A stretch of DNA of 64,000 nucleotides. Source: Nostoc sphaeroides (GTDB taxonomy: Bacteria > Cyanobacteriota > Cyanobacteriia > Cyanobacteriales > Nostocaceae). The notes under the pieces were generated by a model. That model searched no databases. It was not told where the DNA came from and saw only the letters and a program-made list of their open reading frames with translations. Positions 57,728 through 64,000 of this stretch are shown piece by piece. Within the stretch, counting starts at the first letter, position 1, and each line of letters opens with the position of its first letter. The stretch spans positions 181,501 to 245,500 of the forward strand of contig NZ_CP031941.1 of assembly GCF_003443655.1 (NCBI RefSeq), written 5' to 3'. The translations under genes and the position numbers were made by a program.

Positions 57728-58609
57728 TTAATTTTCCAGTATCATAGCTTGCTGCCCTTGAGGCGAAGTTGCATAGCCTAAGAAAGCTTGAACTCCAGGG
57801 CTAGCAGGGTTTTTATAGACATAAAACAGTTGCCGTTGATAGGGATAACTACTTGCATCGGGAGTCAATCCATCAATTGGAACAAATCGTACTGTTTGTT
57901 GATTGGCAACCTGTGCAAAGGTTGCATAGCCAATGCCATCAGTTCCTAAAGCTTGGAGTAGAGGAGTTGTGGCATCTCGTGGTAGTGTTGCAATGTTTGA
58001 TGTTGTGCCAAAATTAGCTCCCTTCAACACTATTTCCTGAAATGCTTGATGCGTTCCACTAATTGCCGGTCGATTAATGACTCGGATAGTTCCACTGTTA
58101 CCACCTACGGCTGACCAGTTGTTAATTTTGCCCTGAAAAATATCTGCTACTTGGGCGCTAGTTAATCCTTGATTAAAAGGATTTGCTTTACCAACCACAA
58201 GCGCGATCGCATCTTTTGTCACAGACACCGCCATCAATCCCTGACTTTGTTCTTGTGCAGTTAGCGATCGCGATACCGCCGCAATATCTGCTCTACCGGC
58301 TATCAAATCCGCGATCCCATTTTGAGAACCATTAGCACTAGTGACAACATTTGTCCCAGGAAACTGCCTCTCAAAAGCTCTTTTGAGATTTTGGTTAATT
58401 GTCACCATGCTCGTAGATCCGTCTATTCTCACAGTAGTACCGCTTGCTACTGAACTTGGGGGCGAAAAAGTCGAATTACCAGCAGAGGGTGTATTAACTG
58501 AAGGGGTAACATTACCTGGCCTGATTACAAAGAACCAGTAACCACCACCGATTAAAGCTAGAAAAATCAGGATAAAAACAATTGGAGGAGGAGCGCTTTT
58601 TTGACTCAT
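57728..58609 (-). CDS. PstS-like periplasmic substrate-binding protein
   Basis: The 293-residue protein has an N-terminal membrane anchor (about 8-28, PPIVFILIFLALIGGGYWFF), a Ser/Thr/Pro-rich linker and a phosphate-binding-type PBP fold: VRIDGSTSMVTINQNLKRAF, GSQNGIADLIAGRADIAAVS, FQGKINNWSAVGG and ISGTHQAFQEIVL. It keeps the IDGSTSM and SGTH ligand loops of the family. No permease or ATPase gene is near, so it may sense rather than transport. It starts 6 bp after the PspA-like gene on the same strand. Confidence 0.88.
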   Translation of the reverse strand: MSQKSAPPPIVFILIFLALIGGGYWFFVIRPGNVTPSVNTPSAGNSTFSPPSSVASGTTVRIDGSTSMVTINQNLKRAFERQFPGTNVVTSANGSQNGIADLIAGRADIAAVSRSLTAQEQSQGLMAVSVTKDAIALVVGKANPFNQGLTSAQVADIFQGKINNWSAVGGNSGTIRVINRPAISGTHQAFQEIVLKGANFGTTSNIATLPRDATTPLLQALGTDGIGYATFAQVANQQTVRFVPIDGLTPDASSYPYQRQLFYVYKNPASPGVQAFLGYATSPQGQQAMILEN

Positions 58610-58615
58610 AACTTT

Positions 58616-59329
58616 TTACTCTGGTAATTTTTCAAGACTCGATTCACTTAACATTTGCAAACGACGAGAAACTTCATCATCTACAGTCATGCGTTCTATT
58701 TCAGCCTGAAGTTTTTCAGTTGGGTTTTCAGAGATTTCAGCTAAAGCGCCTGTTTGGAAATTTCGGCGTTCAACTGCACTTTTAGCTTTTTCAAAGTCAC
58801 TTTTTGCTGAACCAATATCAAATTCATTATTGACTTTGGCAATCATCGCTAGTGCTTCATTCACCTCTGACATATCTTTCATATTTTGCATATCAGCTTT
58901 GTAGGTTTCTAGCTTCATGCGCTCCCGGTTCAGTTTGTCTTTAGAAGCATTTACAGATGTCTCAGCTTGTTTGACCATTTCCTCCAATTTAGGTAAAATT
59001 TGCTCTGTCTGAATTGCCTTAGCCATTGCCATCCTTGCTGCTTCTGGATTACCACTGCGCTGGGCAATATTTGCTTGCTGCTCCAAAGTCCGTAATTCTT
59101 TAACTTTTGTCTCGTATTTATTTTTGGCTGTTTTGTAAGAACCTTCTTGCATAGCAACAGCTTGAGCTAGCTTTTGTACCGATTCTTGCATTGATTGCAG
59201 TGATTCTTCAGCTACGGCTACAGCTACCTTACCACCAGATTCTACCGGCATTCCCCATAGCCAATTCCAAGTACCAACTATAGTTCTTCCTGCTTTTTCA
59301 CCCATTAACCAGTACATAGCTTTTTTCAT
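58616..59329 (-). CDS. PspA/IM30-like coiled-coil protein
   Basis: The 237-residue protein is mainly alpha-helical. AEESLQSMQESVQKLAQAVA starts a long coiled coil, with MAKAIQTEQILPKLEEMVKQ and KLNRERMKLETYKADMQNMK further on, and DIGSAKSDFEKAKSAVERRN resembles the PspA hairpin. PspA/IM30 proteins bind and protect membranes as ESCRT-III-like assemblies. The N-terminus (KKAMYWLMGEKAGRTIVGTW) is not the usual amphipathic helix, so this is a divergent paralogue. The PstS-like gene follows 6 bp downstream. Confidence 0.8.
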   Translation of the reverse strand: MKKAMYWLMGEKAGRTIVGTWNWLWGMPVESGGKVAVAVAEESLQSMQESVQKLAQAVAMQEGSYKTAKNKYETKVKELRTLEQQANIAQRSGNPEAARMAMAKAIQTEQILPKLEEMVKQAETSVNASKDKLNRERMKLETYKADMQNMKDMSEVNEALAMIAKVNNEFDIGSAKSDFEKAKSAVERRNFQTGALAEISENPTEKLQAEIERMTVDDEVSRRLQMLSESSLEKLPE

Positions 59330-59603: not shown

Positions 59604-61400
59604 CTACACAAAGGTAAAGGCACTACTAGAGATATTCAAATCTAGCGATACATTTTGCAAAAGGCCAATCACTTCACCTCTGGCTATTACTCCAGGATCG
59701 TAAATTAGTACAGCATCAGTCGTGCCAGTGGCAGAAGTAAAGAGGTCTAAGCTATAGAAATCCCTTGAGCCTTTGAGTTCAATAAAATCTTGATTGAAGT
59801 CAAAGTCAGTAATTAGGGCATAGTCAGACTCCCCTGTAGTCAAAGACTGACCATCATCGTAGTAGACAAAACTACTATCCCCAAGGACGAAGGTATCGCT
59901 ACCGGATGAACCGGTTAAAATATCAACTTCACCAGTACCAAATCCCAGTCCATTCTCCACTCCAATCAGGCGATCGCTACCTTCACCGCCATCAAGAGAA
60001 TCGTTCCCCAATCCAGCGATGAGAGTGTCTGTTCCGGCTTCACCACTGATAATGTCATTACCATTGCGGCCAAAGATGCGATCGCTACCTTCACCACCAG
60101 AGATAGAGTCGTCGCCATCACCACTATCTATAATGTCATTGCCATTTCCACCACTGATAATGTCATTATCATTACGGCCAAAGATGCGATCGCTACCTTC
60201 ACCACCAGAGATGGAGTCGATGCCTTCGCCACCATCAATAATGTCGTTGCCATTCCCACCACTGAGAATGTCATCATCATTGCCGCCAAAGATGCGATCG
60301 CTACCTTCACCACCAGAGATAGAGTCGATGCCTTCACCACCATCAATGTTGTCGTCACCATTCCCACCACTGATGGTGTCATTGCCTATTTCTCCATTAA
60401 GGCGATCGCTACCTTTACCACCATCAATGTTGTCGTTGCCATCTCCACCGGATATATCATCCCGGCCTCCATTACCGATTAAAATGTCATTGCCAGCATC
60501 ACCAAAAATCAAATCTTCACCACTTCCTCCTTCCACGGTATCCTGACCATTGCCGCCACTAATTAGGTCATTGCAGCTACCACCGAAAATTTTGTCATTA
60601 CCGCCAAGTCCTTCCAGGACATCATTGCCACCTAAACCGAAAATGATTTCACGGCTGTTAGAACCTGTCAATACATCGTCATTTTGACTCCCTCTCAAAG
60701 TGGGTGGAGGAGTCAAAGCAAAATTAACTATCTGCTGTAGTTCTTCTGAACTTATCCCTGCCAATGCATCCAACTCAAGGGATGTTAAATCTGCTGCTTT
60801 AGCCAGTGCTGTCGCTTGATCAGAATTTTGAGCCGCAAAATGCATCACAATCTGGGTTTCACCAGGAGCTAAAGTGAGATTGTATGCAAAATTAACGTTA
60901 TCAAAGTTCAAAGATGCAGCATCAGGTCTAAGACTTCCATTTTCCCCTGCTATTACATGCACTAGCGTAGGGTCGCCTCCACCATCAAAATCATCGGTAA
61001 CCAGCCAGTTATCGTCTGTGTTAAAGACATTATCACCACTAGAAGTGCTAACTAAAACAGTTGAATCGTCAGAACCGAGATTAGTATTGAGGTTAACTGT
61101 GTAATTGACCGTTGCAGAACTAGTATTTGTGACAATTTCGAGAAATCTAGCCCAAGACTGGTCTTCTGGCACATATATTTTCCGCTGCACTTGCACTTGA
61201 TCAATGAAAACTGGCTCGATAACTACTTCTCGTCCGTTATCCTCGGTTTGAGCAGTATTCAAGAAAGGGAAGAAGTTATTTAAAATGAGTCCACCATCGT
61301 AGGCATCAACAGTGCCATTATTAATATTCCCATCTCCTTGGATATCCCAACGAAATCCAGAAGAATCGAATAAATCAGTAGGTAAAAAAATCTCTGACAT
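59604..61400 (-). CDS. RTX (hemolysin-type calcium-binding repeat) protein, secreted
   Basis: The 598-residue protein has an N-terminal 250-residue beta-rich domain (FRWDIQGDGNINNGTVDAYD suggests a dockerin-like or EF-type loop) and then about 20 nonapeptide repeats (265-470) such as GGNGNDIIDGGEGIDSISGG that bind calcium in a beta-roll. The last 110 residues follow a YALITDFDFNQDFIELKGSR motif common at the C-terminus of such proteins. There is no signal peptide; export by type I secretion is likely, though no transporter genes are here. Function is unknown. Confidence 0.92.
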   Translation of the reverse strand: MSEIFLPTDLFDSSGFRWDIQGDGNINNGTVDAYDGGLILNNFFPFLNTAQTEDNGREVVIEPVFIDQVQVQRKIYVPEDQSWARFLEIVTNTSSATVNYTVNLNTNLGSDDSTVLVSTSSGDNVFNTDDNWLVTDDFDGGGDPTLVHVIAGENGSLRPDAASLNFDNVNFAYNLTLAPGETQIVMHFAAQNSDQATALAKAADLTSLELDALAGISSEELQQIVNFALTPPPTLRGSQNDDVLTGSNSREIIFGLGGNDVLEGLGGNDKIFGGSCNDLISGGNGQDTVEGGSGEDLIFGDAGNDILIGNGGRDDISGGDGNDNIDGGKGSDRLNGEIGNDTISGGNGDDNIDGGEGIDSISGGEGSDRIFGGNDDDILSGGNGNDIIDGGEGIDSISGGEGSDRIFGRNDNDIISGGNGNDIIDSGDGDDSISGGEGSDRIFGRNGNDIISGEAGTDTLIAGLGNDSLDGGEGSDRLIGVENGLGFGTGEVDILTGSSGSDTFVLGDSSFVYYDDGQSLTTGESDYALITDFDFNQDFIELKGSRDFYSLDLFTSATGTTDAVLIYDPGVIARGEVIGLLQNVSLDLNISSSAFTFV

Positions 61401-62040
61401 ATTTTGCTCCTTGTTTTTGTTCAGTAAATTTTCTGTATTGTGGACAAGTGGTACGCTCGATTAGCGTAAATCTTCGAGAATGCAGACTTTTCGGTACTAG
61501 TATGAAGAGTAAGCGCTCAGGGTAGTAATGAGAGAATAAGGCTTTCAGGCGATCAAATCAGTTGATTTAGCCTCCTGCGTTCAAACTTAGGGACTTAACA
61601 GTGCGTCGCTACTACCGCGAACAAACCGTTGTATGAACCTAATTAGACTAGATTTAATCTGAATCAATCCAGGTCAATTTCAGATCATTATCTAACTGAA
61701 CTCAATTTGAGATTGACATTGATGCCTTATCTATGCTGTTAATGACAGCTATTTTATTTACATCAAGTATTCCTATCTTTATGAAATTATTTACTCCAAA
61801 AGCTAAGATCCCCAACTTCTTAGAGAAGTCAGGCATCTTGTTGTTCACGGCAAAATCAAGGAAAATATTTCATATAAAAGCGTTTTGGGCTTTAGCTTAA
61901 CTGCGTGCCATTCGCTGATGAATTTTCTCTAGCAAGAGTAATAAAAACTTGTTGATATTTGTAACATTCACACGTAATAAGTCAATTAAAAATCAGGTAA
62001 ACTCAAGCAGCAAAAGCTTTATTGTCTTTCAGGTAAGCAA
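61401..62040. promoter_or_regulatory. Divergent intergenic region between RTX and sigma-like genes
   Basis: The second copy of the shared box lies here: 61749-61787 (ATTTTATTTACATCAAGTAT and TTTATGAAAT) and 61880-61911. It is about 350 bp upstream of the RTX start and on the same strand sense as copy 1. GGAGCAAAATATG at the RTX start gives its ribosome-binding site. I see no gene. Confidence 0.45.
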
Positions 62041-62227: not shown

Positions 62228-62962
62228 GTGGATGAACAACTTAAAAAACTGATTGATGAGGTATGCTGCTACCCAGACCCCAGTCTAGAAAGGCAGAAAG
62301 CATTAAATAGACTGCTGATGGTGATTCAACAACTCCCTGGCATTTATAAGTCTGGACACCAAGACTATTTAGAAGCCTTAAATCAAACTTGGGAATGGGT
62401 GAGCCGGAAGATTTGCTCTTTTGAAGCGCGTTCACGAAGTGACTCCGTTCGCGTAGCGTCCCGAAGGGAAGGAGTATCGCCTTCTTTCCAACAAAGCCTA
62501 GTAATCTGGATTAATGGCTATCTCAAGTGGCGCATTAAAGATTTATATCTACCAGATAGCAATTATACCATCAGTTTAGACAGGCTTACCCGTAACGATG
62601 AGGGTGACGAAACAACCCTGCTCAATATTTTGCCAGACCGTCAGTCACAAACTATTTCTTTAGATTTGCTGGATATCAAAATTGCCCAAATCCAGGAAAC
62701 TGAGCGTCAATGCCTTGGTAAACGCATCTGGCAATATATTGAGCAAGACGAAGAGGGTAAATTAACAGCTAGTCATCCCCGCAAAAATCCAGAATGCCAT
62801 TGTCACTTATTGGCAATGCGCTTACTTCTGAAAGAACCACCTCATAAAATCGCCGATATTGCTAGAGAGTTAAATATAAGCAATCAAACTCTCTACTCCC
62901 ACTGGAAGAAAAATTGTCTTCCCCTGTTAAGAGAAATTGGTATGAATTTCGGATCTGACTAA
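62228..62962 (+). CDS. Sigma-70-like protein of an operon with DUF1822 and a CHAT-like gene
   Basis: The 244-residue protein reads like a divergent extracytoplasmic-type sigma factor. QTWEWVSRKICSFEA and SLVIWINGYLKWRIKDLYLP resemble region 2, and LLKEPPHKIADIARELNISN with QTLYSHWKKNCLPLLREIG resembles a region 4 helix-turn-helix. It starts with GTG; GGGAG lies about 11 bp upstream. About 18 residues (RSRSDSVRVASRREGVSP) are repeat-encoded. Its stop overlaps the start of the DUF1822 gene. It may direct transcription of the neighbouring genes, but sigma activity is not proven. Confidence 0.75.
   Translation: MDEQLKKLIDEVCCYPDPSLERQKALNRLLMVIQQLPGIYKSGHQDYLEALNQTWEWVSRKICSFEARSRSDSVRVASRREGVSPSFQQSLVIWINGYLKWRIKDLYLPDSNYTISLDRLTRNDEGDETTLLNILPDRQSQTISLDLLDIKIAQIQETERQCLGKRIWQYIEQDEEGKLTASHPRKNPECHCHLLAMRLLLKEPPHKIADIARELNISNQTLYSHWKKNCLPLLREIGMNFGSD
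62426..62481. repeat. Dispersed repeat inserted in the sigma-like gene
   Basis: GCGCGTTCACGAAGTGACTC and CGTTCGCGTAGCGTCCCGAA with GGGAAGG form a palindrome-rich SDR-type unit common in Nostoc genomes. Read in frame it gives an Arg/Ser-rich peptide between the two halves of the apparent region 2. The frame continues normally afterwards. Confidence 0.75.
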
Positions 62963-63867
62963 TGACTAACACACAACCACATCTTTTAAGTGTCCCTCTC
63001 CCCCAAAATGCCCACCGTTGGGCTGAGGAATTTGCCACCCAGCAAGATAACCCCCAAAAGGGAAAACAAGTTTATCTGAATACTTTGGCTGTTTATGCCG
63101 TTCACAGTTATCTCAAATGGCTGAACATTGAGACAGCACTAAATCAAGGCGACAGTTGGCATCGTGGTTTAAGGGCGATTTTTGATGTTGCTGATTTAGT
63201 CTTGCCGGGTGTTGGTAAGCTTGAATGTCGTCCAGTGTTACCGGGTGAAACTGCTATAGTGTTGCCTCCAACTATGACACAAGAACGCATTGGTTATGTA
63301 GGAGTTCAGTTTAGTCAGCAATTAGATTACGTAGAATTACTGGGATTTCTCCCAGCAAGGGAGATGAATGAATCACCAGCAATACTGCAAATAGCACAAC
63401 TGCAATCATTTGATTCTCTTTTGGAAATTATCCATAGGCGAACGCGATTAATAAATCTGCGTCAATGGGTTACGGGAATCTTTGAGCAAGATTGGCAACC
63501 CCCAGAGTTAGTGTTTGCTAACAATTTCAGAAGCAGTAGCACAATGACTCGCCCTTCAACTAACTCTATCAGTCGGGCAAAGGCGATTAAATTGGAAAGC
63601 CAACTACTGTTGTTAGTGCAGTTAACTCCCACAGATAGCGAAGTTTTTGATATTCGCCTACGAATTTATCCAGGTGATGATGCGATTCATCTACCACCAG
63701 ATTTACAACTGATTGTTGTTGATGAAGCCGGAAACACTGGCATGGAAGCGCAAGCAAGAAGTGCAGATGACTGGATGCAACTAGAGTTTAGCTGCCAGCA
63801 CGAGGAAAAATTCAGTGTCAAAATAGTGTTAGGAGAAACAAGTCTGATGGAAGAGTTTGTTGTTTAA
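62962..63867 (+). CDS. DUF1822 family protein
   Basis: The 301-residue protein opens with LLSVPLPQNAHRWAEEFATQ and GKQVYLNTLAVYAVHSYLKW, the DUF1822 hallmark. The middle has KLECRPVLPGE and YVGVQFSQQLDYVELLGFLP; the C-terminus is beta-rich (LRIYPGDDAIHLPPDLQLIV). No membrane span or catalytic motif is seen. The family is known almost only from cyanobacteria, and its function is unknown. Its ATG overlaps the last base of the sigma-like stop codon, so the two are translationally linked. Confidence 0.88.
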   Translation: MTNTQPHLLSVPLPQNAHRWAEEFATQQDNPQKGKQVYLNTLAVYAVHSYLKWLNIETALNQGDSWHRGLRAIFDVADLVLPGVGKLECRPVLPGETAIVLPPTMTQERIGYVGVQFSQQLDYVELLGFLPAREMNESPAILQIAQLQSFDSLLEIIHRRTRLINLRQWVTGIFEQDWQPPELVFANNFRSSSTMTRPSTNSISRAKAIKLESQLLLLVQLTPTDSEVFDIRLRIYPGDDAIHLPPDLQLIVVDEAGNTGMEAQARSADDWMQLEFSCQHEEKFSVKIVLGETSLMEEFVV

Positions 63868-63888
63868 GACAAACAAAAGGAGACAGGA

Positions 63889-64000
63889 ATGGCGATCGTC
63901 AAGTTGAAACTCAGACGCAATTCAACAGATGGATTTTTGGTAATTCTAACAGCGAAGAACTTGGATGAAGAAACAGAAGGATTTTTGCCTCCGTTACCAC
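63889..64000 (+). CDS. N-terminus of a CHAT-type protein (cut by window edge)
   Basis: The visible 37 codons read MAIVKLKLRRNSTDGFLVIL and TAKNLDEETEGFLPPLP. AGGAGACAGG precedes the ATG and fits a ribosome-binding site. Cyanobacterial CHAT proteins in such operons begin with a short beta-strand-rich segment of this kind ending in LPP, but the CHAT catalytic domain, if present, lies beyond the edge. The call is from context and this N-terminal resemblance only. It follows DUF1822 by 21 bp. Confidence 0.5.
   Translation, partial: MAIVKLKLRRNSTDGFLVILTAKNLDEETEGFLPPLP

Follow-up and report, generated by a model that had tools for sequence, protein, structure and literature searches.

A sigma-like, DUF1822 and CHAT-receptor operon of Nostoc sphaeroides and a proposed anti-sigma role for DUF1822

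Three same-strand genes at the right-hand end of a 64,000-nucleotide stretch of the 6.7-Mb Nostoc sphaeroides genome (contig NZ_CP031941.1, positions 181501-245500, hereafter the window) encode a sigma-like protein, a DUF1822 protein and a CHAT protein joined to a putative membrane-anchored sensor. That this sigma-like / DUF1822 / CHAT operon is real was confirmed, and it is considered reasonably probable that the receptor CHAT protein cuts DUF1822, acting here as an anti-sigma factor, and so frees the sigma factor by regulated proteolysis through a single receptor. A broader reading, on which judgement is evenly balanced, is that DUF1822 constitutes a new anti-sigma family cut by cyanobacterial receptor-caspases with varied sensors (PstS-like, CHASE2, Peripla_BP_6 and nSTAND). 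On the same reading, the gut-type DUF1822 described below would lie within one membrane protein, partly beside a zinc finger, and the cyanobacterial form would be soluble, with the sensing and membrane parts residing in the receptor. The parts of the operon are as follows (aa, amino acids; ECF, extracytoplasmic function; TM, transmembrane; AF2, AlphaFold2, with pLDDT as its confidence measure).

62228..62962, + strand: sigma-70/ECF-like protein, 244 aa, with region-2-like and region-4-like parts (from hhalign against same-genome sigma proteins)
62432..62476, + strand: repeat of 15 residues inserted in frame into the sigma-like gene (from alignment of orthologues)
62962..63867, + strand: DUF1822 protein, 301 aa, proposed anti-sigma factor (from Pfam, the AF2 model and homologue context)
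62962..63396, + strand: DUF1822 N-domain, residues 1-145, proposed sigma-binding part (from gut-type homology and co-variation)
63526..63561, + strand: low-confidence, length-variable linker, approximately residues 189-200, candidate cleavage region (from pLDDT and insertions)
63568..63864, + strand: immunoglobulin (Ig)-like beta sandwich, DUF1822 residues 203-301 (from the model and structure comparison)
63889..64000, + strand: first 37 codons of a predicted EACC2-CHAT - TM - PBP_like_2 receptor protease of 711 aa (from Pfam, the catalytic dyad and the TM-like segment)

The three open reading frames (ORFs) run from 62228 to 62962 (244 aa, GTG start), from 62962 to 63867 (301 aa) and from 63889 onward. 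An earlier note on this DNA had reported that the sigma-like stop overlaps the DUF1822 start and that the third gene begins 21 bp later; the coordinates agree, one base being common to the stop and start codons in TAATG and 21 bp lying between the DUF1822 stop and the start of gene 3. In the proposed mechanism, DUF1822 would act as a soluble anti-sigma factor, its N-domain binding the ECF-like sigma factor encoded beside it. The extracytoplasmic PstS-like domain of the membrane receptor, replaced by CHASE2 or Peripla_BP_6 in sister systems, would bind a ligand, which homology suggests might be phosphate or another oxyanion, and binding would switch on the CHAT cysteine protease on the presumed cytoplasmic side of the membrane. 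This protease would cut DUF1822, perhaps in the flexible linker preceding the Ig-like domain, and the sigma factor, freed after cleavage, would then act. The binding, cleavage and ligand steps are proposed for this operon from homology and precedent; Csx29-Csx30-CASP-sigma, CalpL/T/S and HetF-PatU3-HetZ serve as precedents for a scheme of protease, inhibitor and regulator.

Gene order in other genomes provides the first line of evidence. Twenty loci from close relatives contain 19 DUF1822 matches, with a sigma-like gene directly upstream of 18 and a CHAT gene directly downstream of 17; one locus is without CHAT (L023), one has neither neighbour recognised (L024), one has no DUF1822 match (L025), and in L010 the contig ends inside the CHAT gene. 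A broad set of 60 loci, with no genome contributing more than two, was drawn from the better-scoring matches of a phylum search and is therefore not a random sample. It contains 62 DUF1822 matches, of which 55 have a sigma-like gene directly upstream (median gap 24 bp), 40 have an EACC2-CHAT gene among the next three same-strand genes and 36 have both; DUF928 was found in 16/62. Because the sigma labels of one sub-type (L071, L109 and L112) are circular, the profiles having been seeded from L071 and L112, the counts without it are also given: 52/62 for sigma and 35/62 for sigma with CHAT. Both L071/L112 sub-type proteins scanned matched no sigma family. Seven matches are without a sigma-like gene: in L061 and L069 the nearest same-strand upstream gene encodes a TPR-CHAT protein, L068 has an unscanned upstream gene of similar size, L090 and L101 are short second DUF1822 ORFs, and in L080 and L086 no sigma was seen at either DUF1822 locus. 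Judged from these counts, the gene order recurs beyond chance, and the test set beforehand by the earlier note, that DUF1822 should repeatedly stand beside sigma-like and CHAT genes, gave a positive outcome.

The upstream genes include two classes. The short sigma class, to which the window kind belongs, accounts for 22/62 matches, with CHAT in 21 of them; the single short-class case without CHAT, L066, is followed by a double trypsin-like protease that by eye has a secreted-like start. The long class accounts for 33/62, with CHAT in 15, and five of the seven long-class proteins scanned pass TIGR02937 (55-110 bits against a cut-off of 42.9), the other two being the L071/L112 sub-type. The possibility that the long-class sigma/DUF1822 pairs are HetZ-PatU3 was not adopted, most of the long class being sigma-70 by profile score. 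Plasmids carry the arrangement as well. In five cyanobacterial plasmid records, RefSeq gives the upstream gene as a sigma-70 family factor in three and as a hypothetical protein in two, and at plasmid loci L141-L145 the gene after DUF1822 encodes CHAT (L142 and L144), a CHASE2 protein (L143), a DUF6717 protein (L141) or an M48 peptidase (L145). On a Pseudanabaena plasmid, the gene in third place, 610 bp further on, encodes an M48 metallopeptidase. Plasmid C of Trichormus variabilis ATCC 29413 carries a sister operon (AVA_RS28195-28190-28185), whose receptor has CHAT and no named sensor domain. Variations in copy number were also seen: at L005:2645-12942 one sigma-like gene is apparently common to two divergent DUF1822-CHAT-CHASE2-DUF928 operons, and in L011 and L012 the CHAT-PBP receptors are duplicated in tandem behind a single sigma-DUF1822 pair.

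The anti-sigma proposal draws on distant homologues. The phylum search found DUF1822 in 240 of 386 genomes at E up to 0.001, a count that takes in N-domain-only matches, and in 226 over the curated cut-off; it also gave single, weaker matches in many genomes of 1.5-2.5 Mb outside the photosynthetic class, presumed to be gut Vampirovibrionia/Gastranaerophilales and for this reason called gut-type. The description of DUF1822 as cyanobacteria-specific in the earlier note thus needs qualification: N-domain homologues reach beyond the photosynthetic class into other parts of the phylum. The profile match between the DUF1822 N-domain and the gut-type proteins has a probability of 97.8 (P 1e-12). The gut-type set consists of 23 loci from the better matches (3/5 of a first batch and all 20 of a second); L158 (G339), partial at a contig start, was left out, as was the likely spurious match of G016 (L159), which has long overlapping ORFs and no DUF1822 or sigma profile match. 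In this set the N-domain stands at the start of a protein 766-1294 aa long (495 aa in one case truncated at a contig end), with exactly one TM-like segment in 20/23. A sigma-like gene lies within 300 bp downstream in 21/23, the exceptions being L193 (cut) and L161, and the two neighbouring sigma proteins that were scanned score over the TIGR02937 cut-off (45.7 and 65.1 vs 42.9). The motif HxxxCxxC is present at residues 198-204 in 8/23, and zf-HC2, an anti-sigma zinc finger, scores over its cut-off in one of two gut-type proteins scanned (28.1 vs 22.2). Most members lacking these Cys and His residues retain a D-x-(D/E) pattern at the zinc-finger stretch, which may represent a zinc-free anti-sigma helix. 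No CHAT match was obtained in the five gut-type loci scanned for CHAT. At L157:1-2959 and L160:1-2896, a protein of 965-986 aa adjoining the gut-type sigma gene starts with zinc-ribbon-like CxxC motifs.

Within the window, the 301-aa protein scores 217 bits against Pfam DUF1822, the sole family listed at E up to 1, and its AF2 model (pLDDT 82.8) consists of an alpha/beta part and a beta sandwich. Insertions of up to 81 aa follow residue 198 among relatives, and a TM-like segment is present in just 3/82 DUF1822 proteins. The label of TPR protein given to DUF1822 previously (Kaur et al., 2021; PMC8195603) was rejected for the window protein, in which neither the AF2 model nor Pfam reveals helical TPR repeats; the result holds for the window protein, and long members have helical-looking insertions. 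From the homology and gene context described above, DUF1822 is probably an anti-sigma factor rather than a TPR protein.

Gene 3 continues beyond the window to position 66024, 2,024 bp outside, and encodes 711 aa (L004:7390-9525). The earlier note had guessed CHAT from 37 residues, and the full protein bears out the guess, with CHAT at residues 103-344 (49.6 bits, PF12770 cut-off 24) and PBP_like_2 (PF12849) at residues 429-678 (102 bits vs cut-off 27). One hydrophobic TM-like segment begins at residue 396 with lysines immediately N-terminal to it, an arrangement that would fit a cytoplasmic CHAT domain and an external binding domain. Residues H235 and C280 are invariant in 19/19 aligned PBP-type sequences (its own and two tandem copies counted), and G234-H235 and N278-S279-C280 are invariant in 40/40 diverse receptors; a rigid text pattern missed the dyad in some rows (e.g., L102, L103 and L106), where the alignment recovers it. 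The profile and the His-Cys pair predict that this CHAT domain is a cysteine protease. Its EACC2 label was taken from shared N-terminal conservation in alignments, without an EACC2 domain model, and gene 3 shows the traits of EACC2-caspase neighbourhoods: a conserved N-terminal part, where the type has an alpha+beta region, a caspase-type domain, a variable C-terminal part, and adjacent DUF1822 and sigma-like genes.

Relatives of gene 3 combine the CHAT domain with diverse sensors. All 40 have a CHAT profile match, and their sensor parts include CHASE2 (20), Peripla_BP_6 (9) and nSTAND1 (3, two with WD40). A CHAT tree of 57/60 receptors, labelled on tails only and leaving out the split ORFs of L063 and L078, comprised CHASE2 (20), PBP_like_2 (19), Peripla_BP_6 (9), other (6) and nSTAND (3) types; the run warned of long branches meeting. 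The PBP_like_2 type forms a single clade (100/100), and CHASE2 and nSTAND each require at least two changes on well-supported branches, which gives a modest indication of sensor swapping. A TM-like segment lies C-terminal to CHAT in 51/57 receptors. The nearest solved structure to the sensor domain of gene 3 is Sll0540, followed by phosphate-binding proteins. Gene 3 does not reach the PstS subfamily TIGR02136 (138.4 bits vs 206.6) or the HetF model NF045509 (19.4 and 18.8 bits vs 1200), to which its CHAT similarity is weak (E 2.5e-4 and 8.8e-4). HetF itself is present in the N. sphaeroides genome, and three DUF1822-linked CHAT proteins match the HetF model weakly.

The product of the first gene is probably a sigma factor, an identity weakly supported by profile comparison. 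The sigma-like call of the earlier note is favoured by hhalign, in which the window family aligned with four same-genome sigma proteins over both regions (probability 91, P 1e-6; controls, DUF1822 0.0 and CHAT 1.2), but curated sigma cut-offs were not passed. Among the 14 Pfam families listed, HTH_7 alone passes (24.8 vs cut-off 23.8), and the short-class relative in L066 scores 39.5 bits against TIGR02937 (cut-off 42.9). The sigma alignment, compared with PDB sequences, returned six matches, at E 0.16 or worse, none named as a sigma factor, and Foldseek placed two transcription-initiation complexes at the top for a poor model with E of approximately 1, which was set aside as no evidence. The 15-codon in-frame repeat (62432-62476) sits within the region-2-like part; orthologues have 15, approximately 8, or 0-1 residues at this site, the insert being mostly absent or shorter, and its 25-base core has two more genome copies at two mismatches. 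A sigma-like paralogue without DUF1822 was observed at L132:7002-7652, near a DUF2330 gene and an apparent near-copy thereof.

Co-variation of the three proteins was assessed by mirror-tree analysis of 23 short-class loci, with L078 and L106 removed; because the loci are related rather than independent, p-values are rough. With the C-domain of DUF1822 held constant, sigma distances correlate with those of the N-domain (partial r 0.67); with the N-domain held constant, no such relation to the C-domain is seen (0.02, jackknife -0.03 to 0.10). The result stays with equal column numbers. Such a pattern is compatible with a sigma-facing N-domain.

Several results weigh against the regulated-proteolysis model or one of its parts. 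In 22/62 matches no EACC2-CHAT gene is found among the next three same-strand genes, and the sigma-DUF1822 pair can therefore exist alone. The window sigma-like protein passes no curated sigma model in Pfam or NCBIfam scans (no NCBIfam match; Sigma70_r4_2, 17.3 vs cut-off 25.7), the other five of six short-class relatives scanned have no NCBIfam match, the short-class family aligns poorly with the long class (hhalign 3.8) and with gut-type sigma (22.5), and the AF2 model is poor (pLDDT 59.5). The HxxxCxxC motif is absent from all 301 aa of the window DUF1822, and 15/23 gut-type homologues are without the zinc-finger motif. DUF1822 has no Csx30-like match and no PDB sequence match at all; among the matches listed (50 from Foldseek, 50 from VIA-align) no Csx30-named structure appears, and no Foldseek match of any kind reached E ≤0.001, although VIA-align barely covered residues 1-198 and Csx30 kinship is still compatible with these searches. 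Finally, the coupling of CHAT distances to the DUF1822 N-domain equals that of sigma distances (0.67), and their coupling to the C-domain is weaker (0.35); the co-variation is thus no proof of contact with sigma and does not single out a docking site for the protease.

Alternative explanations were weighed against these data. An unlikely one, which nevertheless survives best, is that the CHAT protein cleaves itself and serves a conflict system (immunity or cell death) as its effector or alarm, with sigma and DUF1822 as an extra transcriptional output. Such a role was proposed for EACC2 systems by Kaur et al. (2021; PMC8195603). Mobility of the genes would suit it, as plasmid-borne copies exist and seven of the 19 plasmid records with a DUF1822 match are predicted to be conjugative, as would the nSTAND1 sensor parts in 3/40 receptors. 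On the other side, CHASE2 and Peripla_BP_6, found in 20/40 and 9/40 receptors, are sensor domains of ordinary signalling, PADLOC families gave nothing better than E 0.009 in the four proteins scanned, and DUF1822 was without a match in phage records.

It is rather improbable that CHAT docks on DUF1822 without cutting it and that DUF1822, as the sigma inhibitor, lets go through a conformational change or a switch of partners. The 22/62 matches that have no EACC2-CHAT neighbour would be accommodated in this way, as would the gut-type homologues, most of which have their own TM-like segment and, in the five loci scanned, no CHAT; the catalytic dyad, invariant in 40/40 receptors, speaks for cutting. 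Still more doubtful is that CHAT targets the sigma factor, either to activate or to destroy it, with DUF1822 as adaptor or co-activator. The sigma-CHAT correlation persists once the DUF1822 N-domain is controlled for (partial r 0.41 over 25 loci, L106 and the mis-cut CHAT row of L078 included), and for ECF54 a review gives proteolytic control without an anti-sigma factor as proposed, CHAT genes lying nearby; against this stands the gut-type N-domain, which is found beside sigma genes and, in part, an anti-sigma motif of the zinc-finger type. Incidental operon packing has a negligible chance of accounting for a sigma-like gene directly upstream in 55/62 (or 52/62) and 18/19 matches, and nothing was found in its favour.

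Three further features lie upstream of the operon.

61994..62015, + strand: conserved element upstream of the sigma gene, CAGGTAAACTCAAGCAGCAAAA (from alignment of relatives)
57728..58609, - strand: PstS-like binding protein, 293 aa, homologous to the gene 3 sensor domain (context)
58616..59329, - strand: PspA/IM30-like protein, 237 aa (context)

PstS-like and PspA/IM30-like genes occur upstream on the opposite strand, as in the window, at 11/20 close-relative loci (L006-L025). An RTX calcium-binding repeat protein (59604-61400) separates the PspA-like gene from the sigma gene in the window; in several close relatives (e.g., L006, L008 and L009) the two genes are adjacent, without the RTX gene between. 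The degenerate pattern of the upstream element identifies a single site genome-wide with zero mismatches, and the genome scan found no other site at 0-1 mismatches and three at two mismatches. No regulon can be derived from it, and it lends no support to autoregulation; the element may be a leader or another kind of promoter. The suggestion in the earlier note of a signal-dependent protease coupled to its own transcription comes near the best model once two points are amended, autoregulation being unsupported and DUF1822 being likely both protease target and sigma inhibitor.

Should the regulated-proteolysis model be correct, a function would be assigned to DUF1822, a domain of 240/386 sampled genomes of the phylum, and a vague caspase conflict system would become a testable signal pathway. 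CHAT control of sigma, known from type III-E CRISPR, would be extended to direct signalling by a membrane receptor. On the broader reading of DUF1822 as a new anti-sigma family, cyanobacteria would possess a large receptor-caspase/anti-sigma/sigma signalling class comparable to two-component systems.

Among known systems, RseA-DegS and RsiW are cases of anti-sigma proteolysis driven by an envelope signal. They share with the present proposal the series of envelope signal, protease, anti-sigma factor and ECF sigma factor; they differ in that the anti-sigma factor spans the membrane there, while the protease is predicted to do so here. Neighbourhoods of EACC2-caspase, ECF sigma and DUF1822 genes, the type to which the window operon belongs, are mentioned in one sentence of the available text of Kaur et al. 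(2021; PMC8195603), where DUF1822 is called a TPR protein with no anti-sigma role; the sensor here is PstS-like. The system was called uncharacterised in the earlier note, which is apt insofar as no biochemistry was found in the literature searched, yet this neighbourhood had been mentioned. What is new here is the anti-sigma proposal for DUF1822, which was not stated in the accessible portions of the open-licence literature searched, and the neighbourhood itself is already published. The same search returned nothing that joins CHASE2 with a CHAT domain, nor CHAT and CHASE2 with a cyanobacterial sigma factor. A review places ECF54 sigma factors near CHAT genes, with no anti-sigma factor.

Further parallels come from CRISPR-associated systems and from Anabaena. 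In type III-E CRISPR, the TPR-CHAT protein Csx29 cleaves Csx30, an inhibitor of CASP-sigma, and cleavage relieves the sigma factor (Strecker et al., 2022; PMC10028731). The likeness to this CASP/Craspase system lies in a CHAT protease, a sigma inhibitor and an ECF sigma factor in one locus, with roles that are predicted in the present case; the differences are that Csx29 is switched by Cas7-11 and target RNA, in place of the fused membrane sensor proposed here, and that DUF1822 is without detected sequence relation to Csx30. CalpL-CalpT-CalpS of type III CRISPR likewise consists of a sensor-protease, an anti-sigma factor and an ECF sigma factor, but there the protease is of the Lon type, with a SAVED sensor for cA4 and a cytoplasmic signal (PMC11417357). 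In Anabaena, HetF cleaves PatU3, which limits HetZ (PMC12288457; PMC8406250). HetF resembles the proposed receptor: it is a CHAT-TM protein, it belongs to a filamentous cyanobacterium, and the protein it cleaves is the inhibitor of a transcription regulator. It differs in its TPR part (CHAT-TM-TPR) and its location at the divisome.

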